Shown here in pieces: positions 18,546 to 38,719 of a stretch of DNA of 64,000 nucleotides (position 1 is its first letter; each line of letters starts with the position of its first letter). The stretch spans positions 682,001 to 746,000 of the forward strand of contig NZ_CP029562.1 of the NCBI RefSeq assembly GCF_004136315.1, read 5' to 3'. The notes below the pieces were generated by a model. It was not told the DNA's origin. It saw only the letters and a program-made list of their open reading frames with translations, and did no database searches. The translations under genes were made by a program, and so were the position numbers. The stretch is from Mesorhizobium sp. Pch-S. GTDB lineage: Bacteria > Pseudomonadota > Alphaproteobacteria > Rhizobiales > Rhizobiaceae.

Positions 18546-19220
18546 CTACGCCCTCGGATCGGCCTTGGAACGCTGCTCCAGCCAGCTGACCAGCCGCACC
18601 AGCGGCCACAGGAACAGCAGATAGATCAGGGCCGCGCCGACCAGCGGCGTCGGGTTGGCCATGAGGGCCTGCGCGTCCGTCGCCTGCTTGAGCAGATCCG
18701 GCATCGCCACCACGGAAGCCAGCGCGGTGTCCTTGAAGATGGAAACCGCATTGCTGGTGAGCGGCGGCACGACGATTCGCAGCGCCTGCGGCAGGATCAC
18801 CTTGCGCATGGCAGTCCAGAACGGCAGGCCAAGCGCCGCGGCCGCCTCGAACTGGCCCTTGGGGATGTTCTCGATGCCGGCGCGGCAGACTTCCGCCGTG
18901 AAGGCGCCCAGAACCATGGAGAGGGCGAGCGTGGCCGAGGTAAAGGCCGACAGGCGGATGCCGACGAAGGGCAGTGCGTAGTAGATCATGATCAGCACGA
19001 CCAGGATCGGCGTCGCACGGAAGATATCGATGAAGCCGACCGCCAGCAGGCGCAGCGGTTTCGGCGCATAGAGCCGCATCAGGCAGACGCCCAGGCCGAG
19101 CAGTCCGCCGAAGAAGATAGCGGCACAACCGAGCAGCAGCGTGTTGCCGAGGCCCCTGACCAGCATCGGGAAGGCGCGGACGAGAACGTCCCAGTTGAAG
19201 AAGGTTTCTAGCAATCCCAT
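18546..19220 (-). CDS. amino-acid ABC importer permease, HisM/GlnP type
   Basis: A 224-residue polar-amino-acid permease with about five membrane segments. The ATPase-contacting EAA loop is visible near residues 130-155 (FEAAAALGLPFWTAMRKVILPQ). It is downstream of the binding protein at 19410 on the same strand with a 189-bp gap. No second permease and no ATPase gene accompanies it, so it must act as a homodimer with an ATPase encoded elsewhere. Its unit begins with the aminotransferase at 21493 and shares the AGTATACT site with the divergent flavin monooxygenase operon. Confidence 0.88.
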   Translation of the reverse strand: MGLLETFFNWDVLVRAFPMLVRGLGNTLLLGCAAIFFGGLLGLGVCLMRLYAPKPLRLLAVGFIDIFRATPILVVLIMIYYALPFVGIRLSAFTSATLALSMVLGAFTAEVCRAGIENIPKGQFEAAAALGLPFWTAMRKVILPQALRIVVPPLTSNAVSIFKDTALASVVAMPDLLKQATDAQALMANPTPLVGAALIYLLFLWPLVRLVSWLEQRSKADPRA

Positions 19221-19409
19221 CGTGACGATCCGTCCGCGTCGTTACGGCCGCATGCCGGGAGCCTCTGACTTCCGGCAGTCCTGCGACAATCAGAGTTGAT
19301 CCTGGTCACAATTGTAACCCGGTGAGCAGCCCGTGGCAGCCTCCCGAACAACACGATGCCGGCGGCGTCCAACGTGTCGCCACCGGCATCGGCCGAGCCC
19401 CCGCCCGGC

Positions 19410-20210
19410 TTACTGAGCCTGCGGAATGGGCAGGATCTTGTTGGTCGATGAATCAGCGGCGGCCTCCGCACCCAGCCACTTCTTGTGAAGTGCGGCCATG
19501 GTGCCGTCCTTCTTGATGGCATCGATAGCGCCGTTGACCTTTTCGAGCAGAGGCGAGCCCTTCTTCATCATGATGCCGAACTTGTCGCCGGTCGGGATCG
19601 CCGTCACCACCGCCATGTCGGGCATCTTGGTGAAGGCGAACTGGAAACCGGCGATATCGCCGATGGCACCGTCGAGACGGCCCGACTGTACGTCGAGAAT
19701 GAGGTTCTGCTGCGTATCGTAGCCGCGATATTCCTTGATGCCGTATTTCTCGGTGTTGGCCTTGATCCAGGCCTCGCCGACCGAGGCAGAGATGGCGCCG
19801 ACGGTCTTGCCCTTCATGTCGTCCAGCGTCTTCAGCGGTGTGTCCTTCTTGGCCACCAGCGCGATGTCGCTGTCGTAATAGCCCTGCGTGAAAGCCTGGT
19901 TCTGCAGGCGATCATTGTTGATGGTGATCGAGGAGATCGCCAGATCGATACGGCCGGAAACGGTGGCCGAAAACAGCGCCTGGAAGCCGAGATCCTGGAT
20001 TTCGACCTCCGAGCCGATGCGCTTGCCGATCTCCTTGACGAGATCGACCTCGAAGCCTTCGAACTGGCCGGTCTCGAGCTTGTTTTCCCAGGGCGGGTTG
20101 GCCGGATAGGCGCCCACTAGCAACGTTTCGGCATGCGCCAGCGACGCAGCACCGAGACCCATCGTCAGCGCCGCGAAGGCGCCGATCAGATTGCGGCGGT
20201 TAAGAAGCAT
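19410..20210 (-). CDS. periplasmic amino-acid-binding protein, HisJ/GltI type
   Basis: A 266-residue family 3 solute-binding protein. The signal peptide MLLNRRNLIGAFAALTMGLGAASLAHAE is followed by the typical start TLLVGAYPANPPWENK. Further family marks are GFEVDLVKEIGKRIGSEVE, the ISSITINNDRLQ region and a GTMAALHKKWLG C-terminus. AAGGGGAACCAA precedes the ATG at 20210, which rejects the longer frame to 20345. It lies 68 bp after the aminotransferase stop, in the same transcription direction. The ligand is probably an amino acid or amino-acid-like compound that the linked aminotransferase and monooxygenase operon degrades. Confidence 0.9.
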   Translation of the reverse strand: MLLNRRNLIGAFAALTMGLGAASLAHAETLLVGAYPANPPWENKLETGQFEGFEVDLVKEIGKRIGSEVEIQDLGFQALFSATVSGRIDLAISSITINNDRLQNQAFTQGYYDSDIALVAKKDTPLKTLDDMKGKTVGAISASVGEAWIKANTEKYGIKEYRGYDTQQNLILDVQSGRLDGAIGDIAGFQFAFTKMPDMAVVTAIPTGDKFGIMMKKGSPLLEKVNGAIDAIKKDGTMAALHKKWLGAEAAADSSTNKILPIPQAQ

Positions 20211-20278
20211 TTGGTTCCCCTTATATTGACCCGCCGGTTCGTTGCGGCGGGATGGGTCTGTCCGGACGCGACCCTTCG

Positions 20279-21493
20279 TCATGAAAGTGCCGACACCATG
20301 CGGGCGGCGGCTTGCCGGATCTGATCCGGGTCGCGCAGCACGCACATTCTGAGGAAAGAGCGGGACGCATTGCCGAAGAGGTAGCCGGGCGACAGGCCGA
20401 CGCGCGCCTTCTCGATGACGCGGGCGCAGGCCTCGCGCGAATCCTCCTGCCCTTCGAAAGCGAAGAAGGCATACATGCCGCCCTTCGGCTTCGACGGCAG
20501 GATGATGCCGTCGAGCTTCGCCAGCGCCTCATAGGCGATGTCGAGGCCAAGCCTGGCCCGCTCGCGGATTTCAGTCACCAGCGGCTCACCCTGGCGCAAT
20601 GCCGCCTCGGCGCCGGCCTGCACGAAGGCAGCGGTACCGCTGTTGGCATATTGCGTCATGGCAGCGACCTGGTCAGCGACACCGGTCGGATGCGACAGCC
20701 AGCCAATGCGCCAGCCGGTCATCGCCCAGGCCTTGGAGAAAGAATTGACCACCAGGACACGATCGTCGTCCTCGGCGATCTGCAACATGGAAGGCGCGAC
20801 CTCACCGTCGAAGTAGAGGCGGCCATAGACCTCGTCGGAGACGATCCAGATGCCGGTGCGGCGCGAGAAATCGAGCAGCGCCTGCAACTCCTCGCGCGTC
20901 GCGGTCCAACCCAACGGGTTGCTTGGTGTCGACAGGAAGATAGCGCGTGTGCGGGCATCGCAACGTGCGAACACGGCGTCGAGATCGAGCCGCCATTCGC
21001 CATCGAAGGCCAGCGCCACCGGGCGTGGCTCGCCGCCGACCAGATGGATGGCGTTGTGGATGTTGGGCCATTGCGGCTCGATATAGACGGCGTTGGTGCC
21101 GACATCGACCAGCAGTTCCATCGCCAGCATCACGGCATGCATGCCGCCGGGCGTCACAGTCGAACGCTCGATCGCAATGTGCCGTCCATGCAGCCGGCTC
21201 TGATAGTCGGAAAGCGCGGTCGTCAGCGAACCCAGGCCACGCATATTGGGAATATAGAAGGTCTGGCCGGCATCCAGCGCCGCCTTGGCGGCGTCGATGA
21301 TGAAGCCCGGCGTGACCATGTCGCCTTCGCCGTACCAGAGAGGAATGACATCACCGAGGCTCTGCGCCTTGGCGGCCAGCTGGGCGATGTTTTCGGTGCG
21401 CAGGTCCTGGATCTGCGGGCGGATGCCCTCGAGCGGCGGAAAGGGCCGGACATTCGCCGGATAGGCGGATGCGCCGCTTCTGCTCAAGGTCAT
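20279..21493 (-). CDS. PLP-dependent aminotransferase, class I/II
   Basis: A 404-residue fold-type I aminotransferase. The PLP-binding lysine is K254 in NSFSKAWAMTGWRIGW; TPSNPLGW and VSDEVYGRLYFDG carry the conserved asparagine, aspartate and tyrosine. It transfers the amino group of its substrate to a 2-oxoacid in the cytoplasm. ATG 21493 follows GGGAGGAACTGCCAT. It is the first gene of a leftward unit with the amino-acid-binding protein and permease. A perfect AACAGTATACTGTT site lies about 100 bp upstream, matching a site before the divergent FCD regulator. Substrate specificity cannot be read. Confidence 0.9.
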   Translation of the reverse strand: MTLSRSGASAYPANVRPFPPLEGIRPQIQDLRTENIAQLAAKAQSLGDVIPLWYGEGDMVTPGFIIDAAKAALDAGQTFYIPNMRGLGSLTTALSDYQSRLHGRHIAIERSTVTPGGMHAVMLAMELLVDVGTNAVYIEPQWPNIHNAIHLVGGEPRPVALAFDGEWRLDLDAVFARCDARTRAIFLSTPSNPLGWTATREELQALLDFSRRTGIWIVSDEVYGRLYFDGEVAPSMLQIAEDDDRVLVVNSFSKAWAMTGWRIGWLSHPTGVADQVAAMTQYANSGTAAFVQAGAEAALRQGEPLVTEIRERARLGLDIAYEALAKLDGIILPSKPKGGMYAFFAFEGQEDSREACARVIEKARVGLSPGYLFGNASRSFLRMCVLRDPDQIRQAAARMVSALS

Positions 21494-21594
21494 ATGGCAG
21501 TTCCTCCCGAAGACACGCCGGCCAAAGACGCGCCGGAACGAGGCCCGGCACACACAGCGCATCCAGCCTCATCAACGGGTTTAATAACGCATGA

Positions 21595-21608
21595 AACAGT
21601 ATACTGTT
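21595..21608. promoter_or_regulatory. FCD-regulator operator, aminotransferase side
   Basis: AACAGTATACTGTT is a 14-bp perfect palindrome about 100 bp before the aminotransferase start. The same CAGTATACTG core is found at 21750 before the regulator gene. Sites of this GTATAC kind are usual for FadR/FCD-type GntR regulators. Confidence 0.75.
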
Positions 21609-21747
21609 CAAGCCTAAAATTTTTTATCCACCCGCTTGCGCTTCTTGCAAAATACGCGCTAGCTTCAGCGAAATTCGCCGTTTTTGGCCTTTCTTATCGC
21701 TTGCGGGTCGTAAAGTTCGGGCCGCATACATCGAGAAATCGGCTTTA

Positions 21748-21761
21748 AACAGTATACTGAA
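21748..21761. promoter_or_regulatory. FCD-regulator operator, regulator side
   Basis: AACAGTATACTGAA shares 12 of 14 bases with the site at 21595 and ends only 14 bp before the regulator ATG. Binding there would overlap the initiation region, consistent with autorepression. Confidence 0.7.
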
Positions 21762-21775
21762 TGCGGAGAAGTCTG

Positions 21776-22477
21776 ATGTCTGACGAAAGGCCGTTCAAAG
21801 GCTCCGGCGGCAGTCTGCGCGCCCAGATCTATGAAGACATCCGCGATCGCATCCATCGCGGCGCCCTGGGCGCCAACGACCGGCTGGTCGATGTGGAGAT
21901 CGCAGGCAACCTCGGCGTATCCCGCATGCCGGTACGCGAAGCCCTGCTGCAGCTCACGCATGAAGGCTATCTCGTCGGCACCACGCGCGGCTTCATGCTG
22001 CCGACGCTGACGCCGACCGATGTCGCCAACATCTTCGAAGTGCGGCGCTGTCTCGAGCCGCGCGCTGCGGCCCATGCCGCACGCACGCTGGATACCGCCG
22101 GGATGGAACGGCTCGCCGCTGCGCTGAAGGATGCCGAAGAAGCCGTCGCGACCGCCGATGCCGAACTTCTGTTCCAGGCCAATGTCCGCTTCCGCCGCTC
22201 ATGGCTGGAAGCCGTCGACAATGACAGGTTGGCCTCGGCCATCGCGCGTTTTGCCGACCATGTGCAGGTCGTGCGCCTCGGCACGCTGACGCACCAGCCG
22301 ACGCAGGCGGTCGTGCTGGCAGGCATGCGCAGGCTCTATGACGCCTTCGCGAACCGCGACTCGATGGCTGCCTTCGACCATATGACCACCTTCATCCAGC
22401 ATGCCGAGGAGCGTTTCGTCGCACTCACCAAGGCACTGGAATCCGCCGGTGACGAAGGCCGGCGCCCGCAGGGATAA
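21776..22477 (+). CDS. GntR-family regulator with FCD domain
   Basis: A 233-residue regulator. The winged helix-turn-helix is at about residues 12-75 (VDVEIAGNLGVSRMPVREALLQL), and the FCD ligand domain is at about 85-220 (VANIFEVRRCLEPRAAAHAA). FCD proteins bind small organic acids, often through a metal, and are mostly repressors of the adjacent pathway. ATG 21776 follows GCGGAGAAGTCTG; an ATG at 21761 would overlap the operator. It leads the operon with the flavin monooxygenase 5 bp downstream, so it is probably self-regulated along with the pathway. Confidence 0.9.
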   Translation: MSDERPFKGSGGSLRAQIYEDIRDRIHRGALGANDRLVDVEIAGNLGVSRMPVREALLQLTHEGYLVGTTRGFMLPTLTPTDVANIFEVRRCLEPRAAAHAARTLDTAGMERLAAALKDAEEAVATADAELLFQANVRFRRSWLEAVDNDRLASAIARFADHVQVVRLGTLTHQPTQAVVLAGMRRLYDAFANRDSMAAFDHMTTFIQHAEERFVALTKALESAGDEGRRPQG

Positions 22478-22482
22478 TCCTT

Positions 22483-23577
22483 ATGATCAAGCCGCATCCG
22501 CTCAAGGGCCCGAACAAGTTCAAGCTCGGCGTCTTCTCCATGAACGCCGATGGCGGCCTGGCGATGACGACGGCGCCCGAGCGGTGGCGTGCGCGCTGGG
22601 ACGACAATCTGAACGCGGCGCGCATCGCCGACAGCGCGGGGCTGGAGTTCCTGCTGCCGATCGCGCGCTGGCGCGGCTTCGGCGGCGTCACCCATGCGCG
22701 CGAATGGTCGTTCGAGACCTTCACCTGGGCGGCGGGACTGGCGACGGCGACAGAAAACATCGCCTTGTTCATGACCGTGCACGTGCCGCTGGTCCATCCG
22801 CTGCAGGCCGCCAAGGCGCTGGCCACCGTCGACCACATCTCAGGTGGCCGTGCCGGGCTCAATATCGTCTGCGGCTGGAACCCGGATGAATTCGCGATGT
22901 TCGGCCAGACGGTCGGCGAGCGCACCTACGACCAGGCCGAAGAATGGATCACCATCATCGAACGCGCCTACAAGTCGCGCGAGCCGTTCGACTTCGCCGG
23001 CGAATTCTATGACCTGAAAGGCGTGGTGAGCCGGCCGGCCAGCCTGCAGGCGCCGCGCCCGGTGACGATGAATGCCGCCTTCGGCGCACCGGGCCGCAAC
23101 TACGCGGCGCGCCACTGCGACTATCTGTTCTCGACCTTTTCCGAAATCTCGGAAGGCCGCGCCCATGTCGTCGATATCGCCAACCGCGCCGCCGAAGTTG
23201 GCCGCGACGTCGGCGTCTATACGGTCTGCCACGTGGTCTGCCGCGAAACGCAGCAGGAGGCGGAAGACTATTACCGTCGCTATGCACTCGAACTCGCCGA
23301 CAAGGGCGCCGTCGACGAGCATATGAAGAAGAAGAAGGAATTCGCCCATTCACATGACGACAAGGCGTTCACCGAATACCGGCAGCGTTTTGCCGGCGGC
23401 GCCGGCACCTACCCGCTGGTCGGCACGCCGGAGAAGATCGTCGACGACCTGATCCGCATCATGGAGCAGGGTTATGCAGGTGCCGCCCTCTCCTTCGTCA
23501 ACTACACCTACGACCTGCCATTCTTCTGCGACCGCGTGCTGCCGCTGATGCGCCAGGCCGGGCTGAGGATGAACTGA
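22483..23577 (+). CDS. RutA-like LLM-class flavin-dependent monooxygenase
   Basis: A 364-residue luciferase-like flavin monooxygenase. The order of motifs is that of RutA (pyrimidine monooxygenase) and its relatives: GVFSMNADGG near residue 15, ARWRGFGGVT near 65, SFETFTWAAGLA, HPLQAAKALATVDHISGGRAGLNIVCGW near 105-130, then GEFYDLKG and a C-terminal VGTPEKIVDDL. These enzymes use reduced FMN and oxygen to open rings or cut C-N or C-S bonds. The next gene is the matching flavin reductase, overlapping by one base. No other rut gene (rutB, rutC, rutD, rutG) is present, so uracil is unlikely to be the substrate. Confidence 0.85.
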   Translation: MIKPHPLKGPNKFKLGVFSMNADGGLAMTTAPERWRARWDDNLNAARIADSAGLEFLLPIARWRGFGGVTHAREWSFETFTWAAGLATATENIALFMTVHVPLVHPLQAAKALATVDHISGGRAGLNIVCGWNPDEFAMFGQTVGERTYDQAEEWITIIERAYKSREPFDFAGEFYDLKGVVSRPASLQAPRPVTMNAAFGAPGRNYAARHCDYLFSTFSEISEGRAHVVDIANRAAEVGRDVGVYTVCHVVCRETQQEAEDYYRRYALELADKGAVDEHMKKKKEFAHSHDDKAFTEYRQRFAGGAGTYPLVGTPEKIVDDLIRIMEQGYAGAALSFVNYTYDLPFFCDRVLPLMRQAGLRMN

Positions 23578-24107
23578 TGGACGTGGCAACCGGCGCGCTG
23601 CCCGCGCACGGCACGGTCGACCCGCGCGGCTTCAAGCAAGGCATGCGTGCGATGGCCGGCGCCGTGGCGATCCTGGCTGCCGAAGATGCCGAGCATGGTT
23701 GCTTCGGGCTGACGGCAACCGCCGTCTGTTCGTTCAGCGCCGAGCCGCCTTCGCTGCTGGCCTGCGTGCACAAGAACAGCACCTTCGCTTCGCTTACCCG
23801 GCAGGACATGGCCTTTTCCGTCAATCTGCCGGCGGCGGACCAGGAGAATGTCGCACGCGTCTTCGGCGGCATGACGACGGCCAAGGGCGTGGCGCGGTTC
23901 TCGGCGGGCTCCTGGGTTCGCGGCGAAGCCGGCGCTCCACTGCTGGTCGGCGCGCGCGCCGTGTTCGAATGCCGGGTCGGCGAAATCATCGCACGCGCCT
24001 CGCATCTGATCCTGATCGGGCTGGTGACCAAGGTGACGCTCGACCGTGTCGAGCGCGAGCCGATCTTCTACGCCCACGGGCGCTTCCTCACCATTAACGG
24101 CCAATAA
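23577..24107 (+). CDS. flavin reductase of the RutF/HpaC type
   Basis: A 176-residue flavin reductase-like protein. Family features are MRAMAGAVAILAA near residue 22, GLTATAVCSFSAEPPSLLACV near 43-63, NSTFASLTRQDMAFSVNLPA and the C-terminal FYAHGRFLTI. It supplies reduced FMN to the monooxygenase, whose stop codon overlaps its ATG (TGATG). The partnership is standard for two-component monooxygenases, so the role is firm even though the pathway is not. Confidence 0.9.
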   Translation: MDVATGALPAHGTVDPRGFKQGMRAMAGAVAILAAEDAEHGCFGLTATAVCSFSAEPPSLLACVHKNSTFASLTRQDMAFSVNLPAADQENVARVFGGMTTAKGVARFSAGSWVRGEAGAPLLVGARAVFECRVGEIIARASHLILIGLVTKVTLDRVEREPIFYAHGRFLTINGQ

Positions 24108-24125
24108 CGTAACGGAGACCAGCCG

Positions 24126-24887
24126 ATGTCCCCTGTCCTGTCCGGCCGGCTGAAGACCCGCCTTGCCGCCAACGACCAGCTCGGCCTGGTCTGGCTGACG
24201 CTCGGCCATGCCTCGATCACCGAAATGGCAGCGCACTCCGGCGCCGATGCGCTGGTCATCGACCTGCAGCACGGGCTGTGGGATCGCCGCTCGCTGGAGA
24301 CGACCGTCGGCATTGCAGCCGGCACCGCTCCGGTGATCGCACGCGTCGCGGACAGTTCGACGACAGCGATCGGCAACGCACTGGATGCCGGCTGCGACGG
24401 CGTGTTGGTGCCGCTGATCGAAAGCCGCGCGCAGGCCGAGCAGGCGATCTCCGCCGCCCGCTTCCCGCCGCACGGCCATCGCTCGGGCGGCGGCGTGCGA
24501 CCGCTTTCGATGGGATTCGGCACCTATCTCGAACGGGCGGGACATGTGGCCGTCGGCCTGATGATCGAGACCGCTGCCGGGGTCGAGCAGGCCGAGGCGA
24601 TCATCACCACACCCGGACTGGACTTCGTGCTGATCGGCACCGGCGATCTCGGCATCTCCTATGCGGCACAAGGCCAGGGCGGCGACGCCACGGAAAAAGG
24701 CTGCCTGCGCGTGAAGGAGGCCTGCGCTAGGGCCGGCATCCCGTGCGGCATCTTCACCGGCAATGTCGACAAAGCGCTCGAACGACGCGCCGAGGGTTAT
24801 CACCTTGTCGTGCTCGCTTCCGATGTCGACGTGGTGCGTGACGCCTTCAACGGTGTGGTGCGCGATTTCGCCGGAGCGGCATCGTGA
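24126..24887 (+). CDS. HpcH/HpaI-type class II aldolase
   Basis: A 253-residue aldolase of the HpcH/HpaI/citrate lyase beta family. Recognisable are ALVIDLQHGLWD near residue 45, a GCDGVLVPLIES segment near 98-110, LMIETAAGVEQAE near 148 (metal-ligand Glu) and LIGTGDLGISY near 178 (metal-ligand Asp). Such enzymes cleave 4-hydroxy-2-oxoacids to pyruvate and an aldehyde or semialdehyde. It is the fourth gene of the FCD operon and overlaps the next gene as GTGA. In the pathway it would act late, after oxygenation and transamination have made a hydroxy-oxoacid. Confidence 0.85.
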   Translation: MSPVLSGRLKTRLAANDQLGLVWLTLGHASITEMAAHSGADALVIDLQHGLWDRRSLETTVGIAAGTAPVIARVADSSTTAIGNALDAGCDGVLVPLIESRAQAEQAISAARFPPHGHRSGGGVRPLSMGFGTYLERAGHVAVGLMIETAAGVEQAEAIITTPGLDFVLIGTGDLGISYAAQGQGGDATEKGCLRVKEACARAGIPCGIFTGNVDKALERRAEGYHLVVLASDVDVVRDAFNGVVRDFAGAAS

Positions 24888-25384
24888 AGCCGCCTTTTCG
24901 CGAGCGGCTGGATTTCGACGGCGGCAACGGCCAGGTGCTCGACGAAAGCCGCCGCTACATGCTGATGCGGCCCGAGGCGCTGATGGGGATGTTCCGTCGC
25001 CTCGACGACGAGACCCGGCGGAAGGCGCTGGAGGCGCTGGCGGCTTCGGTGATCGAAATGGGCGGCGACAGCGCGCGTGCCTACAAGGCACATGGTGGCG
25101 GCGATGCCGACGCCCTGCTGGCAACGGTGGCCAACACCGCGCCCGATCTCGGCTGGGGTGCCTGGTCGTTCGCGCGCGGCAGCGACAGCATTGAACTCAC
25201 CGTCCGCAACAGCCCGTTCGCGGCAGGCTACGGCTCCGCTTCAAAGCCTGTCTGCCATGCCATCGCCGGCATGGCGACGGCGGTCGGTCGCATGGTGCTG
25301 GACAGCGACGATGTCGTGGCGCGCGAAACCGAATGCGTCGCCTGTGGCGCCGCGGCATGCCGCTTCGAGGCGCGCCCGGTCTGA
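24884..25384 (+). CDS. stand-alone V4R-domain-like protein
   Basis: A 166-residue protein with a GTG start inside the aldolase stop (GTGA). After a polar N-terminus, residues about 45-165 resemble the V4R (4-vinyl reductase) small-molecule-binding domain. The last 20 residues hold the best marker, ETECVACGAAACRFEA, in which spaced Glu and Cys residues match the metal-binding end of V4R domains. V4R domains occur as sensor parts of phenol-type activators and in bacteriochlorophyll enzymes; as a single-domain gene in a monooxygenase operon its job is unknown. It could be a small-molecule-binding partner or an enzyme for an unstable intermediate. Confidence 0.65.
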   Translation: MKPPFRERLDFDGGNGQVLDESRRYMLMRPEALMGMFRRLDDETRRKALEALAASVIEMGGDSARAYKAHGGGDADALLATVANTAPDLGWGAWSFARGSDSIELTVRNSPFAAGYGSASKPVCHAIAGMATAVGRMVLDSDDVVARETECVACGAAACRFEARPV

Positions 25385-25388
25385 GGTT

Positions 25389-26219
25389 TTAGCTTTCCAG
25401 CAATATCCGGGTCAGCGGATGCGTGGCATCGGCCAGGCCATCGATGACGCTGAAATGATGGCGGTCAGGCTCGGCATAAAAACCTGTCGAAGCTCCTAGT
25501 CCGGTCCAGATGTTGGCGAGCAGTTCGGACTGGCGGATGAATTCCGCGCGTTCGCCGCCACCGACCCAGCAGACCAGCCGCGCGCCATCCATCGGCAGCA
25601 GCAAGGCGGGGCTCTCGACAGCGGCTTCCGCGGCATCGATCTTCAGCGTCCTGTTCATCCCCGTCTGCATGATCGGCCGCAGATCGTGCACGCCGGACAG
25701 CGAGACCGTGTTGACGACGCGGCGCCGCACGGCCTCCGGCAAGGGTGACGTCGCCGAGATCATGCGCGTGACCAGATGACCGCCGGCGGAGTGCCCGGTC
25801 AGGCGGATGTCGCCATCGACCAGCTCCGCCGCTTTCGTTATCGCAGCGCCGATTTCGGCCGAGATCTGGCCGATACGCGCCTCGGGAGCCAGCGTGTAGG
25901 ACGGCATCGCCACCGCATGGCCGCTTTCAACGGCGCCGCGCGCCAGATGTGACCAGAAGCTCTTGTCGAGCGCCATCCAGTAACCGCCATGCACAAAGAC
26001 GACGAGCCCCTTCGGCGTGCCTACCGGCAGGAACAGGTCGAGCCGGTTGCGTGTTCCCGGACCGTAGGCGATGTCGAGCTGTGCGCGGCCGGACGCCGCC
26101 AACTCGTCGCGATAGGCTGCCGCCGGCGCTACCCAGGCCGCCGGCCAGCGGTCGCCGCCGGCGATGTTGGCGCCGTTGGTGTAGGCATTGTCCCAGTCGA
26201 CGATCTTGTGAACGACCAT
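25389..26219 (-). CDS. alpha/beta-hydrolase arylformamidase (N-formylkynurenine)
   Basis: A 276-residue alpha/beta hydrolase. The oxyanion motif HGGYW starts at H77 and the nucleophile is S144 in GHSAGGHL; a C-terminal RHHFSVIDGL supplies the histidine. HGGxW is the mark of the eukaryote-type kynurenine formamidase/BNA7 group. It removes formate from N-formylkynurenine, the product of the KynA encoded at 29262. It is divergent from the ligase-kynU-kynA operon, with an 18-bp shared regulatory motif between them. ATG 26219 follows AAGGGACAGCGAAC. Its 3' end meets the V4R gene with a 4-bp gap. Confidence 0.82.
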   Translation of the reverse strand: MVVHKIVDWDNAYTNGANIAGGDRWPAAWVAPAAAYRDELAASGRAQLDIAYGPGTRNRLDLFLPVGTPKGLVVFVHGGYWMALDKSFWSHLARGAVESGHAVAMPSYTLAPEARIGQISAEIGAAITKAAELVDGDIRLTGHSAGGHLVTRMISATSPLPEAVRRRVVNTVSLSGVHDLRPIMQTGMNRTLKIDAAEAAVESPALLLPMDGARLVCWVGGGERAEFIRQSELLANIWTGLGASTGFYAEPDRHHFSVIDGLADATHPLTRILLES

Positions 26220-26300
26220 GTTCGCTGTCCCTTCCCTACCGGCTGCGGCCGGCATCCTCGACCTCTACCATAGGCAAGCGCCGGGCCAGTGCAACGATAA

Positions 26301-26449: not shown

Positions 26450-28069
26450 ATGCTTGGGCCGACGGCGCATACCGACACGTTTGCACGAGACAATCTCCCG
26501 CCTCCGGACCTTTGGCCGGACTTCCTGCTCGACGGCTTCGACTATCCCGACCACATCAATGCCGGTGTCGAACTGACCGACCGCATGGTCGAAAAGGGCT
26601 TCGGCGACCATACCGCGCTGATCGGCAACGGCCGCCGCCGCACTTACAAGGAGCTGGCCGACTGGACCAGCCGGCTGGCCCATGCGCTGGTCGAGAACTA
26701 CGGCGTCAAGCCGGGCAACCGGGTGCTGATCCGCTCGGCCAACAACCCGGCCATGGTGGCCTGCTGGCTTGCCGCGACCAAGGCCGGTGCCGTGGTGGTC
26801 AACACCATGCCGATGCTGCGCGCTGGCGAGCTTGCCCAGATCATCGACAAGGCCGAGATCACGCTGGCGTTGTGCGATACCAGGCTGATGGAAGAGATGG
26901 TGGCCTGCGCCAAGCAGAGCAATTTCCTGAAGCAGGTCATCGGTTTCGACGGCACCGCCAACCATGATGCGGAACTCGACCGCATCGCGCTCGACAAGTC
27001 GGTGCGCTTCGATGCGGTCAAGACCGGGCGCGACGACGTCGCCCTGCTCGGCTTCACCTCCGGCACCACCGGCATGCCGAAGGCGACGATGCATTTCCAC
27101 CGCGACCTTCTCATCATCGCCGACGGCTATGCCCGCGAGGTGTTGAGCGTGACGCCGGAAGACGTCTTCATCGGCTCGCCGCCGCTCGCCTTCACCTTCG
27201 GCCTCGGCGGGCTGGCGATCTTCCCGCTGCGCTTCGGCGCGGCCGCGACCCTTTTGGAGAACGCCTCGCCGCCCAACATGGTCGAGATCATCCAGACCTA
27301 CCGCGCCACCGTCTGCTTCACCGCGCCGACCGCCTATCGCGCCATGCTGGCGGCGATGGACAAAGGCGCCGACCTGTCCTCGCTGCGCGCCGCCGTCTCG
27401 GCCGGCGAAACGCTGCCGGCCCCGGTCTACGAGGAATGGATGGAGAAGACCGGCAAGCCGATGCTCGACGGCATCGGCGCCACCGAGATGCTGCACATCT
27501 TCATCTCCAACCGTTTCGGCGATTCCAAGCCGGCCTGCACCGGCAAGCCCGTCGGCGGCTATGAGGCCAAGATCGTCGACGACGACATGAACGAGCTGCC
27601 GCGCGGCGAAGTCGGGCGGCTGGCCGTGCGCGGACCGACCGGATGCCGCTATCTGGCCGACGACCGCCAGACCAAGTATGTGCGCAAGGGCTGGAACCTG
27701 ACCGGCGATTCCTTCTTCCAGGACGAGGATGGTTATCTGCACTTCGCCGCGCGCTCCGACGACATGATCATCTCGGCCGGCTACAACATCGCCGGGCCGG
27801 AGGTGGAGGCAGCGCTGCTGTCGCACGCCGACGTCAAGGAATGCGCCGTCATCGGCGCGGCCGACGAGGAGCGTGGCCAGATCGTGCAGGCGCATGTCGT
27901 GCTGATGGAAGGCGTAGCGGCCGATGACCTGACAACCAAGCGCCTGCAGGACCATGTCAAGGCGACCATCGCGCCCTACAAATACCCGCGCTCGATCAAG
28001 TTCATCGATGCGCTGCCGAAAACCCAGACCGGCAAGATCCAACGTTTCCGCTTGAAAGACACCCACTGA
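26450..28069 (+). CDS. abmG: 2-aminobenzoate-CoA ligase
   Basis: A 539-residue AMP-forming acyl-CoA ligase. The start MLGPTAHTDTFARDNLPPPD matches the N-terminus expected of aminobenzoate/benzoate-type ligases and follows a GGGAGATCGAACGAG leader; an ATG at 26408 is possible. The ATP motif is GFTSGTTGMPKATMHF near residue 200, and the C-terminal catalytic lysine is in KTQTGKIQRF. It makes 2-aminobenzoyl-CoA from anthranilate, ATP and CoA. Specificity is inferred from kynU and kynA directly downstream and from the aminobenzoyl-CoA monooxygenase in the facing operon. Confidence 0.88.
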   Translation: MLGPTAHTDTFARDNLPPPDLWPDFLLDGFDYPDHINAGVELTDRMVEKGFGDHTALIGNGRRRTYKELADWTSRLAHALVENYGVKPGNRVLIRSANNPAMVACWLAATKAGAVVVNTMPMLRAGELAQIIDKAEITLALCDTRLMEEMVACAKQSNFLKQVIGFDGTANHDAELDRIALDKSVRFDAVKTGRDDVALLGFTSGTTGMPKATMHFHRDLLIIADGYAREVLSVTPEDVFIGSPPLAFTFGLGGLAIFPLRFGAAATLLENASPPNMVEIIQTYRATVCFTAPTAYRAMLAAMDKGADLSSLRAAVSAGETLPAPVYEEWMEKTGKPMLDGIGATEMLHIFISNRFGDSKPACTGKPVGGYEAKIVDDDMNELPRGEVGRLAVRGPTGCRYLADDRQTKYVRKGWNLTGDSFFQDEDGYLHFAARSDDMIISAGYNIAGPEVEAALLSHADVKECAVIGAADEERGQIVQAHVVLMEGVAADDLTTKRLQDHVKATIAPYKYPRSIKFIDALPKTQTGKIQRFRLKDTH

Positions 28070-28071: not shown

Positions 28072-29265
28072 ATGACCGACTTTACAAGGACACGCAGCCT
28101 CTTCCACATGCCGGACGGCGTGTTCTATCTCGACGGCAATTCGCTGGGGCCGCTGCCGAAAAGCGCCACCCAACGCGTGCAGGAAATGATGACCGCGCAG
28201 TGGGGCGAACAACTGATCCGCGGCTGGAACGCCTCCGGCTGGATGATGCAGCCGCGCAGGCTTGGCGACCGCATCGGCAAGCTGATCGGCGCGCCGGAAG
28301 GCACTGTCGTGGTCGGCGACACGCTGTCGATCAAGGTCTACCAGGCACTCGCCTCCGCCCTGGAGCTCAATCCATCCCGGCGTGTCGTGCTCTCCGACAA
28401 CGGCAACTTCCCGTCCGACCTCTATATGGCTCAAGGCCTGCTGCGCTCGCTCGACAAGGGCTACGAGCTGAAGGTGGTCGATCCGGAAGAGGTCGAGGCA
28501 GCGATCGATGAAAGCGTCGCCGTGCTGATGATCACCGAGGTCGACTACCGCACCGGCCGCCTGCACGACATGAAGAAGCTGACCGCCAAGGCGCATGCCG
28601 CCGGCGTGCTGACCGTCTGGGATCTGGCGCATTCGGCCGGCGCCCTCGCCGTCGATCTCGAAGGCGCCAGGGCCGACTTTGCCGTCGGCTGTACCTACAA
28701 ATATCTCAATGGCGGCCCCGGCGCCCCGGCCTTCATCTATGTCGCGCCGAAACATGCCGGCAAGGTGCGGCCTGCCCTGTCCGGCTGGCTCGGCCATGAA
28801 AGCCCCTTCGCCTTCGACCTCGACTACCGCTCGGGCGCCGGCATCGACCGCATGCGCGTCGGCACGCCGGCAGTGATCGCCATGGCCGCGCTCGATGCCG
28901 CCATGGATGCCTGGGAAGGCGTGTCCATGGCCGATGTGCGCAAGCAGTCGATCGCGCTCGCCGATCTCTTCATCCGCGAGGTCGAGACACGCTGCCCGGA
29001 GCTGACGCTCGCCTCGCCGCGTAACGGTGCTGAACGCGGCAGCCAGGTTTCGTTCCGCCATCCCGAAGGCTACGCCATCATGCAGGCGCTGATCGCGCGC
29101 GGCGTGATCGGCGACTTCCGTGCGCCCGACGCCGTCCGCTTCGGCTTCACGCCGCTCTACATCGGCGAACAGGAAGTGCTCGGCGCGGTCGGCGTGCTCG
29201 AAGACGTCATGAACAACAAGCGCTGGGATGAGCCGCAATACCGCAAGAAAGCCCTGGTGACATGA
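28072..29265 (+). CDS. kynU: kynureninase
   Basis: A 397-residue PLP enzyme that splits kynurenine to anthranilate and alanine. Recognition marks are [15 protein letters not shown] at residues 16-30, [19 protein letters not shown] near 55, [17 protein letters not shown] near 105 and the PLP lysine K210 in [13 protein letters not shown]. Length is normal. It starts 2 bp after the ligase stop and overlaps kynA by 4 bp (ATGA), so the three genes are one operon that links tryptophan ring opening to anthranilate activation. Confidence 0.95.
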
Positions 29266-30098
29266 GCAAGCCCTACGATCCTTCCCGGGAAGGCGCGCAG
29301 ATGTCGTTCAAGGAACGCATGTCCTATGGCGACTATCTGCATCTCGAGCGCGTGCTCGATGCGCAGGAACCGCTTTCCACCGCGCATGACGAGCTGTTGT
29401 TCATCGTGCAGCACCAGACGTCGGAACTGTGGATGAAGCTGGCGATCCACGAGATCCGTTCGGCGATGCGCGAGATCCGTTCCGACCGGCCGCAGCCGGC
29501 GTTCAAGATGCTGACGCGCGTGGCGCGCATCTTCGAGCAGCTGAACAATTCCTGGGACGTGCTGCGCACCATGACACCCAGCGAATATACCGAGTTCCGC
29601 AACTCGCTCGGCCAGTCTTCCGGCTTCCAGTCCTATCAGTATCGCGCCGTCGAGTTCCTGGTCGGCAACCGCAACACCGCCATGCTCGGGCCGCACGCGC
29701 ATCAGCCGGACCTGATCGCCAAGCTCGAGGAAATCCTGGCCGAGCCCAGCCTCTATGACGAGGCGCTGCTGCTTTTGTCACGCAACGGCTTCGACATCGG
29801 CGCCGACGCCAGCCGCACCAGCTGGCGTGAGACCCGCGAGGAAAACCCGCAGGTTCTGGAAGCATGGAAGGCGGTCTATGCCGCGCCGCAGAAATACTGG
29901 GACCTCTACGAACTCGCCGAAAAGCTCGTCGATTTCGAGGACTACTTCCGGCGCTGGCGTTTCAACCATGTCACCACAGTGGAGCGCATCATCGGGCTGA
30001 AGCGTGGCACCGGCGGCACCGGCGGCGTCTCCTACCTGCGCAAGATGCTGGAAGTGGTGCTGTTCCCGGAACTGTGGACCGTTCGCACGGTACTGTAG
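29262..30098 (+). CDS. kynA: tryptophan 2,3-dioxygenase
   Basis: A 278-residue haem dioxygenase that opens the indole ring of L-tryptophan to N-formylkynurenine. The family signatures are [20 protein letters not shown] near residue 45, [20 protein letters not shown] near 118 and the C-terminal [20 protein letters not shown] with FPELWTVRT at the very end. It is the last gene of the ligase-kynU-kynA operon and is followed by a RIME-like repeat before the convergent RidA gene. Confidence 0.96.
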
Positions 30099-30337: not shown

Positions 30338-30790
30338 TCAATCCGGGACGACCGCGGTCGCCTGGATTTCGACCAGCGCCTCGTCCTCGATCAGGCCCGA
30401 TACCTGGACCACCGCCATGGCCGGGAAGTTGCGGCCCATAGTCGCCTTCCAGGCAGCGCCGATCTCCTTCAGCGACGAGGAGTAGGCTTTGCGGTCGATC
30501 ACGTACCAGGTCATGGTCGTGATGTGCTCGGGGCCGGCGCCGCCCTCGTGCAGGATGGCGATAACGTTCTCCAGCGTCTGCCTAATCTGGCCCGGCAGAT
30601 CATGCACTTCGAACTTGCACTGGCTGTTCCAGCCGATCTGGCCGCCGACGAAAACGGTACGGCCGCGCGCTTCCATGCCATTGGCATATCCGATCGGCTT
30701 CGCCCAGCCTTCGGGTTGCAGCACCCGATGCGGAGTCGTGGCGGCCTTGTGTTCGGAGATTGCGGTCACAGTCATGTCTACTCCACTCAT
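30338..30790 (-). CDS. RidA-family enamine/imine deaminase
   Basis: A 150-residue RidA/YjgF-family protein. Marks are [12 protein letters not shown] near residue 47, [25 protein letters not shown] near 74-98 and the C-terminal [25 protein letters not shown] with the conserved glutamate; the conserved Arg of classic RidA (normally RxYF before the end) is not obvious. It is the last gene of the aminobenzoyl-CoA operon, overlapping the acyl-CoA dehydrogenase by 4 bp. RidA proteins hydrolyse enamines and imines; the product of the aminobenzoyl-CoA monooxygenase is an enamine, so a pathway deaminase role is plausible. Confidence 0.85.
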
Positions 30791-31977
30791 TTCCCAGCCT
30801 TCATCAGCTCACGGCCGATGATCAGCTTCTGAACTTCCGTTGCGCCCTCGTAGATGCGCAGCGCTCGGATCTCGCGGTACAGCGTCTCGGTGATCTCGCC
30901 GACGCGTACGCCGCGCCCGCCGAACATCTGCAGCGCCTGGTCGATCACCCATTGCGCGTTTTCCGTGGCCGTCATCTTGGCCATCGCCGCTTCGCGGGTG
31001 ATCGGCAGTTTCTGCACGTCGCGCCGCCAGGCGGTGCGCACGGTCAGCAGCGATGCGGCATCGATAGCCGTTGCCATCTCGCCCAGCGTGCTCTGAGCGG
31101 TCGGCAGATCGGCAAGCGTGGCGCCGAACATCTTGCGCGACTTGGCGTGTGCCACGGCCTCGTCGAGCGCGCGCCGTGCAAAGCCGAGTGCAGCTGCGGC
31201 AACGGACGGCCGGAAGATGTCCAGCGTGCGCATGGCGATCTTGAAACCCTCGCCCGGCTGACCGAGCAGGTTGGCCGCCGGTACGCGACAGTTTTCGAAG
31301 CGGATGCGGGCTAGCGGATGCGGCGCGATCGTCTCGATGCGCTCGGCGATGTGGAAGCCGGGCGTATCGGCATAGACGACAAAGGCGGAGATGCCGCGCG
31401 TGCCAGGTGCCTCGCCGGTGCGGGCAAAGACGGTATAGACGTCGGCGATGCCACCGTTGGAAATGAAGACCTTCTCGCCGTTGAGCACGAATTCGTCGCC
31501 CTGACGCTCTGCCGACGTGCTCATGGCGGCGACGTCGGAACCGGCTTCCGGCTCGGTCAGTGCGAAGGCCGATATCAACTCGCCTTTGGCAATCCTCGGC
31601 AGGATCGCCTGCTTGATCTCCGGCGAGCCGGACAGGCTGATGGCGCCGGTGCCCAAGCCCTGCATGGCAAAGGCGAAATCCGCCAGTCCGTCGGCATAGG
31701 CGAGCGTCTCGCGGATCAGGCAGAGCGAACGGCTGTCGATTTCCGCAGCCGCGCCGCCGAATTCCGACGGCACGCAATGGCGCAGGAAACCACCGGCGCC
31801 GAGCTTGCGAACCAGCCCCTTGCAGGCGCCGTCGGCATCGTGATGGTCGATATGACCAAGACCGCCACCGGCAACGAAATGATCGAGGTCGGCGGCAAGC
31901 TTCCTATGGTTCTCGGCAAAGAACGGCCAGTCGAGATGATCCCGTGTCGGGCCGCCGGAACGCTGCGGATTGTCCAT
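30787..31977 (-). CDS. acyl-CoA dehydrogenase
   Basis: A 396-residue flavin acyl-CoA dehydrogenase. FAD and substrate motifs include [17 protein letters not shown] near residue 138, [15 protein letters not shown] near 168, [11 protein letters not shown] near 345 and the catalytic glutamate in [11 protein letters not shown] near 378. It would introduce a double bond into a CoA thioester during the beta-oxidation-like steps after ring reduction of aminobenzoyl-CoA. It lies 2 bp after the enoyl-CoA hydratase stop and overlaps RidA, so it is part of the same operon. Confidence 0.9.
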
Positions 31978-31979
31978 CG

Positions 31980-32822
31980 TCAGTTCCCTTCGAAAACCGG
32001 CTTCGTCTTGGCAGCGAAGGCCTCGAAAGCACGACGGAAATCGCCCGTCGCCATGCAGATGGCCTGCGCCTGGGCTTCGGATTCAATCAGTTCCTCGATG
32101 CCCATAGACCATTCCTGATCGAGCATCTTCTTGGTCATGGAATGCGCGAACCAGGGTCCATCGGCGAGATTACGGGCGAAACGCTGTGCCTCGGCCAGCA
32201 TGACGGGACGCTCATGCAGCGCATTGTAGAACCCCCAGGCATGGCCTTCGGCGGCCGACATCGAACGGCCGGTGAACAGAAGCTCTGCAGCGCGGCCCTG
32301 GCCTATGATGCGCGGAAGAATGCCGCAAGCGCCCATGTCGGCGCCGGCCAGACCGACGCGGGTGAACAGGAAGGCGGTCTTGGCTTCAGGCGTCGCGACA
32401 CGATAGTCGGCACTCATCGCCAGGATCGCGCCTGCGCCAGCGCAGATGCCGTCAACGGCGGCGATGATCGGCTGCGGGCAGGCGCGGATCTGGCGAACCA
32501 GGTCTCCGGTCATGCGGGTGAAGGCCAGAAGCTCCGGCATCGCCATCTTGGTGAGCGGCTCGATGATCTCGAACACGTCACCACCAGAACAGAAATTGTC
32601 GCCGGCGCCCGCCAGGACGATGGCACGGACGTCGCTGGCTCGATGCAGCGAACGGAACAGGTCGCCCAGCTCCTCATAGCTTTCGAAGGTCAGCGGGTTC
32701 TTGCGCTCCGGCCGGTTGAGCGTGATCGTGGCGACACGGCCGTCCGCATCGGTCTCGAACAGGAAGTGCTTGGCCTTGTGGCCCTTGAAGGGGCGCTTCT
32801 TGTCCAGCATCGCGTCGGTCAT
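31980..32822 (-). CDS. enoyl-CoA hydratase/isomerase family protein
   Basis: A 280-residue crotonase-fold protein. The oxyanion segment [12 protein letters not shown] lies near residue 80 and the second [16 protein letters not shown] near 125, with [13 protein letters not shown] following, where crotonases place catalytic acids. Substrate class is CoA thioesters; the reaction may be hydration, isomerisation or ring hydrolysis. It sits 75 bp after the cupin gene and 2 bp before the acyl-CoA dehydrogenase. The N-terminal 20 residues are polar; an alternative ATG is at 32810. Confidence 0.88.
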
Positions 32823-32897
32823 CGCTCATTTATCCTTGCTTGCTTCCGGCACGCCCATCGGCGTGCCGGTCTGTCGTCCTGTTGTGCGGGCCGGTCG

Positions 32898-33353
32898 TCA
32901 GTCGTTGGCCGACGGCGGCAGGAAATCCACGTCATGCTCTGCCGAAAGCCGCACCACTTCCTCGACATCGGTGAGATTGTGCAGCTTCTTGAACAGGTCC
33001 TCGAGCCTGCCGGCCGGAGATACCCAGAACAACGCACGGGCCGGCTTGTCGGACTTGTTGAAATAACCATGCGGGACACCGCGCGGCATGCGCACCAGAT
33101 CGCCGGCCCTGGCCGTGAACCACTTGCCGTCGAGCTTCAGCTCCAGCTGCCCTTCCTGCACGAGGATGAACTCCTCCTGCGTCGGATGGATGTGGACCGG
33201 TACGAACTGGCCGGCGTCGCTGTTGGTCTCGAAGGCAAAACTCGATGCGCAGGTGGCCTTCGGAAAGTAGCGCTGGCCCAGGATGTTCCACTCGGTCGCT
33301 TCGTAACCGGTACCGTTTTCGGTGATGCCTTTCTCCAAAGCTTTGTCAGTCAT
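32898..33353 (-). CDS. single-domain cupin protein
   Basis: A 151-residue cupin. The first metal motif is PVHIHPTQEEFILVQEGQLEL (two His and one Glu, residues about 53-73), and the second is GVPHGYFNKS near 95. Cupins of this kind can be dioxygenases, isomerases or simple metal-binding regulators. The ATG at 33353 follows AGGGAGGAACGC. It lies inside the aminobenzoyl-CoA operon between the SDR and the hydratase genes, so it probably acts on a pathway intermediate, but I cannot name the reaction. Confidence 0.8.
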   Translation of the reverse strand: MTDKALEKGITENGTGYEATEWNILGQRYFPKATCASSFAFETNSDAGQFVPVHIHPTQEEFILVQEGQLELKLDGKWFTARAGDLVRMPRGVPHGYFNKSDKPARALFWVSPAGRLEDLFKKLHNLTDVEEVVRLSAEHDVDFLPPSAND

Positions 33354-33375
33354 GCGTTCCTCCCTTTGATTGTTC

Positions 33376-34155
33376 TCAACCGGCCATGACTTCGCCGCCG
33401 GCGACCGCGATGGCCTGGCCGGTGATGGCGCCCGCTCCTTCGGACACCAGCCACAGCACCGCATCGGCAACCTCCTGCGGTGTCACCAGGCGGCCTTGCG
33501 GATTGGCACGGGCAAGGTTGGCGCGTGCCTCATCGGCAGTGCGGCCAGTCTTGCCGACGATGGTGTCTACCGCACCGTCGAGCAATGGCGTGTCGGTGAA
33601 ACCGGGGCAGACGGCATTGACGGTAACGTCGGTGCGCGCCAGTTCCAGCGCAAGCGCCCGGGTCAGGCCGACGACACCGTGCTTGGAGGCGCAGTAGGCC
33701 GAAACATAAGCATAACCGGTCAGGCCGGCGGTGCTGGCAACGTTGACGATGCGCCCCTTTCCGGCCTTGCGGATCGAAGGCAGCAAAGCCTGCGTGACGA
33801 GGAAAGTGCCAGTCAGGTTGATACCGATGACGCGGCCCCAGAGTGCTGCATCCGTGCGCTCGAAGGGCGCCGAGGGTGCCTCGCCGGCACAATTGACCAG
33901 AACCGCGACTTCGCCCGAGGCGGCAATAGCTTTGGCGCAGCCAGAGGCAATCGTCGCGGCATCGGTGACATCAAATCCGTCGATCACGACGGATTTGCCA
34001 CCGCCGGCCGCGATCTCCCTGGCAACGTCTTCCAGTGGTGCAGCGCGACGCCCGGCCAGCGAGACGGCATGCCCGCTTTTTGCCAAGGCGAGCGCAATGG
34101 CACGGCCGATGCCGCTGCCGGCACCGGTGATGAGGGCGTGACGCGCTGCGCTCAT
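33376..34155 (-). CDS. short-chain dehydrogenase/reductase
   Basis: A 259-residue classical SDR. The nucleotide motif is [14 protein letters not shown] near residue 9, [12 protein letters not shown] is near 90, and the catalytic [14 protein letters not shown] (Tyr-x-x-x-Lys) is near 155. It has an NAD(P)H-dependent alcohol/ketone reaction, here most likely 3-hydroxyacyl-CoA dehydrogenation or reduction of the ring ketone formed by the monooxygenase/reductase. It overlaps the monooxygenase gene by 4 bp (ATGA), which indicates close coupling of the two steps. Confidence 0.9.
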
Positions 34156-36476: not shown

Positions 36477-36550
36477 GGTCATCTCCGCTCTGCTCACGGC
36501 CGGTCAAGGCCGTGCGTGAACCATGAAGCGATAGTGGGCTCTCTCCGAAG

Positions 36551-37673: not shown

Positions 37674-38660
37674 ATGATTTCGTCTAAGGCCGGATGGCTG
37701 TCCGGAATAGTACTTGCAGGTTCGCTGATCGCCAGCGTGGTCAGCGCCGCCGCAGATCCGATCCGTATCGGCATCGCCAATTTCGGCGAACATCCGCAGC
37801 TCAACGCCTCGATCGCCGGCTTCAAGAAAGGCTTGGCCGAAAGCGGCTTCGTCGAAGGCAAGGATGTGGTCTTCACCGAAAGCCACACCAATTTCGACGC
37901 CACGCTGGTTCCGCAGATGATCGAGAAGCTGAAGGCCGAAAACCCGAAGCTGATTTACACCGTGACCACCCCGGTCTCGCAGATCGCCAAGCAGCAGCTC
38001 GCCGGCAGCGGCATCAACATCGTCTTCACCGCCGTGACCGACCCGGTCGCTGCCAAGCTGGTCCCGTCGTGGGAAGCCGGCGACACCGGCATCACCGGCT
38101 CGTCCGACCTGCAGGACGTGGCCGCCGTGATGGAATTCACCAAGAAGCTGCTGCCGGAAGCCAAGCGCTTCGGCGTGCCTTACAACCCCGGCGAAGCCAA
38201 TGACGTCGCCGTGCTCGAGAAGATCAAGGAAGCCGCTCCGAAGGCTGGCTTCGAAGTGGTTGCCGTCGGCGTCGACAACGTCAACGACATCCAACAGCGC
38301 ATCGCCTCGCTCAAGGGCAAGGCAGATGTGATCTACACGCCGGCTTCGAACCTGCTGCAGCCCGCGATTGCCGCGGTTTCTGCAGCTGCCCGCCAGGCCG
38401 GCATCCCGATCGTCAACTCCGACGACGGCGCCGTGCGCAAGGGCGTGGTTCCGGCCAGCTTCGCGGTCAATTACGACCAGGTCGGTCTCGCTGCCGGCAA
38501 GATCGCAGCCGAGATCCTGAAGGGCAAGGACCCGAAGGAAATCGCGCCGTTCCGTCCGGCCTATGCCGACCACAGCCCGCTGATCTCGAAGAAGGTCGCG
38601 GCTGACTTCGGCCTGAAGATCCCGGCAGCGCTCGACGACTGCAAGTGCTTCGCCGACTGA
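37674..38660 (+). CDS. TrpX-type ABC substrate-binding protein
   Basis: A 328-residue exported binding protein of the tryptophan/tyrosine TrpX type. Signal peptide residues are about 1-27 (LSGIVLAGSLIASVVSAAAD). Recognition marks are IGIANFGEHPQLNASIAGFKKG, VTTPVSQIAKQQL and SDLQDVAAVMEFTKKLLPEAKRFG, and the late VNSDDGAVRKGVVPASFAVNY. It presumably binds tryptophan or kynurenine, since the kyn/abm genes adjoin. It is the first gene of the importer operon and is followed by a leaky-looking terminator, a common way to make more binding protein than transporter. Confidence 0.85.
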   Translation: MISSKAGWLSGIVLAGSLIASVVSAAADPIRIGIANFGEHPQLNASIAGFKKGLAESGFVEGKDVVFTESHTNFDATLVPQMIEKLKAENPKLIYTVTTPVSQIAKQQLAGSGINIVFTAVTDPVAAKLVPSWEAGDTGITGSSDLQDVAAVMEFTKKLLPEAKRFGVPYNPGEANDVAVLEKIKEAAPKAGFEVVAVGVDNVNDIQQRIASLKGKADVIYTPASNLLQPAIAAVSAAARQAGIPIVNSDDGAVRKGVVPASFAVNYDQVGLAAGKIAAEILKGKDPKEIAPFRPAYADHSPLISKKVAADFGLKIPAALDDCKCFAD

Positions 38661-38683
38661 GTTCAGTGCGATAGAACTGCGTG

Positions 38684-38719
38684 GCGGCGCCCGGACATAA
38701 CACTCGGGCGTCGCTTTTT
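38684..38719 (+). terminator. intrinsic terminator or attenuator after the binding-protein gene
   Basis: GCGGCGCCCG pairs with CGGGCGTCGC (one G-U pair) and is followed by five T residues. It lies between the TrpX-type gene and the ATPase gene of the same importer, so partial read-through is expected. Confidence 0.75.

Follow-up and report, generated by a model that had tools for sequence, protein, structure and literature searches.

Gene Content and Organization of the Module

The stretch of DNA analyzed here (hereafter the window; 64,000 nucleotides) covers positions 682,001 to 746,000 of contig NZ_CP029562.1 in the single-contig, 6.6-Mb genome of Mesorhizobium sp. Pch-S (GCF_004136315.1). 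Between positions 18546 and 25384 it carries a module of eight genes, encoding an amino-acid ABC transporter permease, a periplasmic solute-binding protein, a pyridoxal phosphate (PLP) aminotransferase, a GntR regulator, a luciferase-like monooxygenase dependent on reduced flavin mononucleotide (FMN), a flavin reductase, an HpcH/HpaI-family aldolase, and a V4R protein (Table 1). The eight open reading frames (ORFs) lie where an initial annotation, made from the sequence alone, had placed them, and the profile matches agree with the families it stated. Its outline of amino-acid uptake, transamination, FMN-dependent oxygenation, and aldol cleavage to pyruvate is supported as a prediction from family membership. 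The balance of the evidence leans, by a little, toward the module being the upper part of an island for the degradation of indole amino acids that feeds isatin and anthranilate breakdown.

The aminotransferase operon diverges from the GntR-monooxygenase-reductase-aldolase-V4R operon across a gap that contains two copies of the palindrome ACAGTATACTGT, one perfect and one with a single mismatch. The shared operators of the initial annotation are real sites: with up to one mismatch allowed, these two are the only occurrences in the genome, and a reversed control pattern gave no site genome-wide. The GTATAC core lies upstream of the GntR-monooxygenase pair in 13 of the 21 dereplicated loci (see below) that have this gene pair (window included; 8 are without it), and in 21 of 650 other upstream regions of those loci. 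Gene families and operators together favor the proposed co-regulation of the two operons, and a GntR repressor would control both through the two operators, judging from the position and conservation of the sites.

Linkage of the Aldolase and Monooxygenase to Isatin Hydrolase

The aldolase is fused to isatin hydrolase in a single protein at three loci from two lineages (L094 and L095, from one genus, and L114), the halves being 46–50% (aldolase) and 53–56% (isatin hydrolase) identical to the window proteins. The fusion in L114 was recognized from sequence and BLAST, and those in L094 and L095 additionally by Pfam. L094 and L095 also share the layout of the window, with permease, binding protein, and aminotransferase on one side and GntR and monooxygenase on the other. 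In the aldolase, which matches the family profile PF03328, the expected metal and pyruvate residues are kept; H49, R73, E148, and D174, which we take to be catalytic, are invariant in seven sequences. HpcH/HpaI aldolases number only 2–3 per genome (eight genomes, E 1e-15), and the best one lies beside the monooxygenase in all eight.

Matches to the monooxygenase (E ≤ 1e-80) were found in 103 of 146 genomes of the genus, six of which have only a paralogue of 40–43% identity, and at 1e-110 in 25 of 297 genomes of the order and 14 of 397 of the phylum (the window's genome and its genus-mates included). In a named scan, 179 relatives came up, in Alpha- and Betaproteobacteria; the best 80 were retained. 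The comparison of gene strings covered 126 sequence sets, the window among them, and used a simple purpose-made gene caller trained on the window genes. The 124 monooxygenase loci include the same contig twice (e.g., L041 and L118), and L096 and L111 were dropped because the gene caller lost the monooxygenase. Dereplication at 90% identity reduced 119 loci to 46, with fetched stretches of unequal length.

The aldolase is present in the fetched stretch of 39 of the 46 loci (within 3 kb in 33), the flavin reductase in 19, the aminotransferase in 15, and the V4R protein in 9. Other partners were GntR (31), a GlcD-like oxidase (20), isatin hydrolase (13), the binding protein (11), IorA (5), coenzyme A (CoA) ligase (5), thiolase (3), and ACMR (2). 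In the closest group (98–100% identity, five genomes), the whole layout is kept, including the kynurenine genes, which are present in the window's four near-identical relatives; they count as 0 of 46 because the window group merges with the B group at 90% and a B-group locus represents both. In a group at 70% identity (seven loci mapped), the monooxygenase, aldolase, binding protein, and permease are kept, the aminotransferase occurs in four of seven, and the module adjoins an aryl-CoA monooxygenase/reductase operon. This group also has a conserved cysteine-desulfurase-like PLP protein (TIGR01976) after the permease (L051:14158-15432).

A gene that often accompanies the monooxygenase was identified as isatin hydrolase (E 2e-104 to 5nmp). 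The idea of isatin as the aldolase product preceded this identification and was recorded only afterwards. L134 has the order GntR, monooxygenase, reductase, aldolase, GlcD-like oxidase, isatin hydrolase, IorA, IorB, and peptide-type binding protein; L130 has the same string plus V4R, and in L113 (Pandoraea) the neighbors of the monooxygenase include isatin hydrolase and IorBA. In a search of 40 genomes (21 of the genus and 19 others with the monooxygenase), isatin hydrolase was present in 39 and lay within 40 kb of the monooxygenase in 21, against a chance estimate of ~2%. Within the genus, it was found in all 21 sampled genomes (of 97) with the orthologue vs. 15 of 26 without it, the latter comprising 20 of the 43 genomes without any match and six with a paralogue only (Fisher 0.0005, which ignores shared ancestry). 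IorA occurs somewhere in 33 of 34 genomes searched.

A general tryptophan island could also produce such proximity by the clustering of unrelated catabolic genes, with the module handling another amino acid (e.g., kynurenine or a non-indole heterocycle). This would fit the different transporters (TRAP, dipeptide, amino acid) at other monooxygenase loci and the 33 of 46 dereplicated loci without isatin hydrolase in the fetched stretch. We consider it unlikely, as the fusions, the single gene strings, and the linkage at several distances in different genera speak against it. A control with paralogue loci found the aldolase, aminotransferase, isatin hydrolase, IorA, and ACMR above thresholds in 0 of 16; it is a weak control, since the 16 collapse to four at 90% identity and two of the loci have related annotated genes that fall short of the thresholds: L039 an aminotransferase and L040 a CoA ester lyase. 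L039, on the Rhizobium etli plasmid p42d, carries its paralogue (39% identity) with a flavin reductase, binding protein, aminotransferase, and RibBA-type enzyme.

The Downstream Island

The initial annotation delimited eight genes; these are real, and the functional unit probably extends beyond them to ~57 kb; the window also encodes isatin hydrolase, IorAB, and enzymes of aryl-CoA ring degradation. Kynureninase, tryptophan dioxygenase, a benzoate-CoA-ligase-family enzyme, the aryl-CoA monooxygenase/reductase, IorAB, and isatin hydrolase all lie within 24 kb downstream of the module. Isatin hydrolase is located between two CrtO-like flavin adenine dinucleotide (FAD) proteins near IorAB, and this set also occurs in six of seven other island stretches (L203-L206, L208, and L209), ~15–38 kb from the module; the L206 stretch ends ahead of the second FAD gene. 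A TrpX-like transporter in the island is perhaps a tryptophan or indole importer. The RidA-like assignment is based on clustering with gene 9 of L051, whose Rid match is below cut-off.

Table 1. Features of the module and its surroundings (window coordinates unless a locus is named).
Feature	Position	Strand	Support or remark
Amino-acid ABC transporter permease, HEQRo type	18546-19220	-	PF00528, TIGR01726 above cut-off
Family-3 periplasmic solute-binding protein	19410-20216	-	PF00497; start likely 20210, listed 20345 is an upstream start
PLP aminotransferase, class I/II, PRK06108 subfamily	20279-21493	-	NF004770 444 bits, cut-off 422; ORF open to 21562
Operator 1, perfect palindrome ACAGTATACTGT	21596-21607	.	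Aminotransferase/GntR gap
Operator 2, ACAGTATACTGT with one mismatch	21749-21760	.	Aminotransferase/GntR gap
GntR/FCD transcriptional regulator	21776-22477	+	PF00392, PF07729
FMNH2-dependent luciferase-like monooxygenase, RutA-type oxygen pocket	22483-23577	+	PF00296; nearest solved relatives SfnG 8t0u, RutA 6sgl
Flavin reductase, RutF/HpaC-like	23577-24107	+	PF01613
HpcH/HpaI-family pyruvate aldolase	24126-24887	+	PF03328
Stand-alone V4R protein, predicted aromatic-binding fold	24884-25384	+	PF02830
Alpha/beta hydrolase, perhaps kynurenine formamidase (context only)	25389-26255	-	NF058665 "hormone-sensitive lipase" model above cut-off
Benzoate-CoA-ligase-family enzyme, perhaps 2-aminobenzoate-CoA ligase	26450-28069	+	TIGR02262 372 bits, just under cut-off 375
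Kynureninase	28072-29265	+	TIGR01814 above cut-off
Tryptophan 2,3-dioxygenase	29262-30098	+	TIGR03036 above cut-off
Operon: RidA-like, acyl-CoA dehydrogenase, enoyl-CoA hydratase, cupin, short-chain dehydrogenase/reductase (SDR), bifunctional aryl-CoA monooxygenase/reductase	30338-36482	-	
Bifunctional aryl-CoA monooxygenase/reductase (of this operon)	34152-36482	-	NF006101 1339 bits, cut-off 1078; NF006107 above cut-off
TrpX-like ABC transporter: binding protein, ATPase, permease	37737-40645	+	PF04392, PF02653; NF041285 (TrpX) 176 bits, below cut-off 390
Indolepyruvate-oxidoreductase-type pair, IorB and IorA	41374-42945 and 42942-45095	-	NF006179 above cut-off; TIGR03336 286 bits, below cut-off 651
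CrtO/amine-oxidase-like FAD protein	46294-47859	-	
Isatin hydrolase homologue	47871-48662	-	phmmer to isatin hydrolase B 4j0n, E 4e-136, full length
Second CrtO-like FAD protein	48802-50370	+	
Aldolase-isatin hydrolase fusions	L094:10235-11800, L095:7630-9198, L114:13493-15079		

Monooxygenase, Flavin Reductase, and Accessory Proteins

The closest profile models of the monooxygenase are SfnG, NtaA, and RutA, all far below their curated cut-offs (SfnG TIGR04021, 162 bits against 383; RutA TIGR03612, 129 against 498), and the flavin reductase likewise scores 103 bits against 255 for RutF (TIGR03615). The Rut pathway was rejected on the RutA and RutF scores, as the initial annotation had done on gene content. 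SfnG is the best single match of the monooxygenase both among the NCBIfam profiles and among the library structures. Two ORFs at 57281-59871, just outside the island, resemble by eye a cystathionine beta-synthase and a cystathionine lyase/synthase. Both observations would suit sulfur scavenging of the kind performed by SfnG or alkanesulfonate monooxygenases, which we nevertheless hold to be very improbable given the shortfall of the SfnG score, the Thr of the RutA pocket that aligns with Ala in SfnG (by eye, in the printed alignment), and the scanned genes at 18.5–50 kb, which are mostly for aromatic and amino-acid catabolism and transport. The oxygen-pocket residues of RutA (L65, T105, N134, V136, and F224) are kept in 122 of 122 monooxygenase orthologues, the Phe in 121; these were taken from PMC7662398 and mapped through an alignment to RutA, a comparison that speaks to residues and not to chemistry.

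The AlphaFold2 (AF2) model of the V4R protein (pLDDT 91) matches the phenol-binding sensor domains of PoxR, MopR, and DmpR (top TM 0.79), and the protein is without the ATPase and DNA-binding parts of these regulators. C124, E148, C151, and C159, presumably corresponding to the zinc ligands of MopR, are invariant in 14 of 14 sequences. The protein is thus predicted from its model to be a stand-alone domain of the aromatic-binding type. Its gene was found in one of 61 genomes (the window's own) in a first survey, and is regarded as accessory because only nine of the 46 dereplicated loci carry it. No gene for an ATP-binding subunit adjoins the permease (18546-20216 neighborhood), so the importer is incomplete as encoded and may depend on a shared ATPase supplied in trans. 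The printed alignment of the binding protein to 4zv1, read by eye, shows an Arg and an Asp of the kind used by amino-acid-binding proteins.

Proposed Pathway and Alternatives

The binding protein and permease would import a tryptophan-like amino acid, which the aminotransferase would convert to a 2-oxo acid, an (ox)indolyl-3-pyruvate; in relatives, the GlcD-like oxidase could arrive at this 2-oxo acid by oxidizing a hydroxy acid. The monooxygenase with the flavin reductase would then oxygenate ring C3 to form a 4-hydroxy-2-oxo acid, and the aldolase would split the latter into pyruvate and isatin, a step to which the fusions and linkage lend support; retro-aldol cleavage of dioxindolyl-pyruvate would yield isatin. 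Isatin hydrolase could open isatin to isatinate, and IorAB may convert isatinate, itself a 2-oxo acid, to 2-aminobenzoyl-CoA, or CO2 loss may give anthranilate. The ring would be degraded by the CoA ligase and the monooxygenase/reductase operon, as their families suggest. The initial annotation had named pyruvate and an aldehyde as products of a heterocyclic or substituted amino acid; pyruvate is retained on the basis of the aldolase family, its partner is most likely isatin, a cyclic ketone, given the fusions and linkage, and the substrate is narrowed to a probable indole or oxindole.

Several observations weigh against this pathway. In 19 of the 40 genomes, including the seven B-group Mesorhizobium examined, the monooxygenase has no isatin hydrolase within 40 kb, although in three of the 19 its contig is shorter than 15 kb and linkage is not visible there. 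Genome G338 has the monooxygenase without isatin hydrolase or IorA at the thresholds used, and five of 34 dereplicated loci of at least 15 kb are without aldolase, isatin hydrolase, thiolase, ACMR, and IorA alike. The kynurenine genes of the window already provide for tryptophan degradation, which would make L-tryptophan itself a redundant substrate. Finally, the N5-peroxide proposed for RutA is a nucleophile (PMC7662398), so the RutA-like pocket, as read from the alignment, would be better suited to attacking a carbonyl than to hydroxylating C3. The conserved pocket argues for RutA-like oxygen activation and, given the nucleophilic mode proposed for RutA, allows other orders of reaction.

In one such order, the imported compound would be dioxindolylalanine, already hydroxylated at C3, from which the aminotransferase and aldolase alone would free isatin, and the monooxygenase would act later, on isatin or isatinate, to give anthranilate and CO2. 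The pocket fits this nucleophilic attack, and L148 and L165 have isatin hydrolase and no IorAB in the fetched stretch. However, IorAB accompanies the monooxygenase and isatin hydrolase in L134, L130, and L113, and with IorA so widespread in the genomes searched, a second isatinate route would be redundant; the conversion by the monooxygenase is therefore treated as a rival that is improbable rather than as the preferred pathway. Moreover, L143, L144, and L183 have CoA ligase and thiolase with no aldolase in view, as would be expected if the hydroxyl required by both kinds of lyase came from the monooxygenase. Its product may be a tertiary alcohol that both lyase types could cleave, as the similarity of the CoA-ligase/thiolase loci to IadF and IadG (see below) suggests. 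L035 (Caballeronia sp. SBC2 plasmid pSBC2-4) has the monooxygenase orthologue beside CoA ligase and thiolase, with a ring-hydroxylating dioxygenase, amidase, and SDR nearby. We take these neighbors to be similar to the iac auxin set, and DUF35 to be the name of the thiolase partner.

Returning to cleavage by the aldolase after C3 oxygenation, we tentatively propose, at slightly less than even confidence, that indole amino acids are broken down aerobically by a new route: a two-component RutA-group FMN monooxygenase would form a 3-hydroxy-(ox)indole 2-oxo acid, from which an HpcH/HpaI aldolase would release isatin and pyruvate. Such a route would parallel the CoA-dependent iad auxin pathway, with an aldolase doing the cleavage, and a single monooxygenase clade would take part in both; for this group of flavoenzymes the reaction type would be new. 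The earlier statement that no described pathway has this gene set agrees with our literature search, which covered open-licence PMC papers (titles and some passages) and found, among the papers listed, none that describes an aldolase route to isatin. Tryptophan, auxin, and indole metabolism in plant-associated bacteria meet at isatin and anthranilate. If true, the oxygenase-aldolase route would assign a function to a so far unassigned monooxygenase clade, found here in Rhizobiales and Burkholderiales, and would explain why isatin hydrolase and IorAB accompany it.

Comparison with Known Systems

The module resembles the Rut system (RutA, RutF) in its monooxygenase, flavin reductase, and oxygen-pocket residues, and differs in its far lower scores and in that no rut gene set was recognized among the scanned genes. 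With respect to the isatin hydrolase family (4j0n, 5nmp), the window gene, 22.5 kb from the module, and the fused or neighboring genes of relatives are close homologues by sequence. The kynurenine pathway to anthranilate and 2-aminobenzoyl-CoA is encoded in the same window and probably shares the lower pathway, but it uses separate enzymes and reaches anthranilate via kynureninase, not isatin.

The iad locus of Variovorax and Bradyrhizobium, as described in PMC9613470 and PMC12633357, likewise ends in dioxindole/isatin-type intermediates and anthranilic acid, and its hydrolase IadI carries the annotation kynurenine formamidase. There, a Rieske oxygenase acts on indole-3-acetate and the side chain is proposed to be removed by CoA ligase and ketothiolase, whereas the module has a two-component FMN monooxygenase, a pyruvate aldolase, an aminotransferase, and an amino-acid importer. 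No Rieske protein (IadCDE) was found among the scanned subset of the window genes, and the thiolase of L107 has no match in the window at E 1e-15. Other loci do carry CoA ligase and thiolase, and these loci of relatives resemble IadF and IadG in gene content (PMC12633357).

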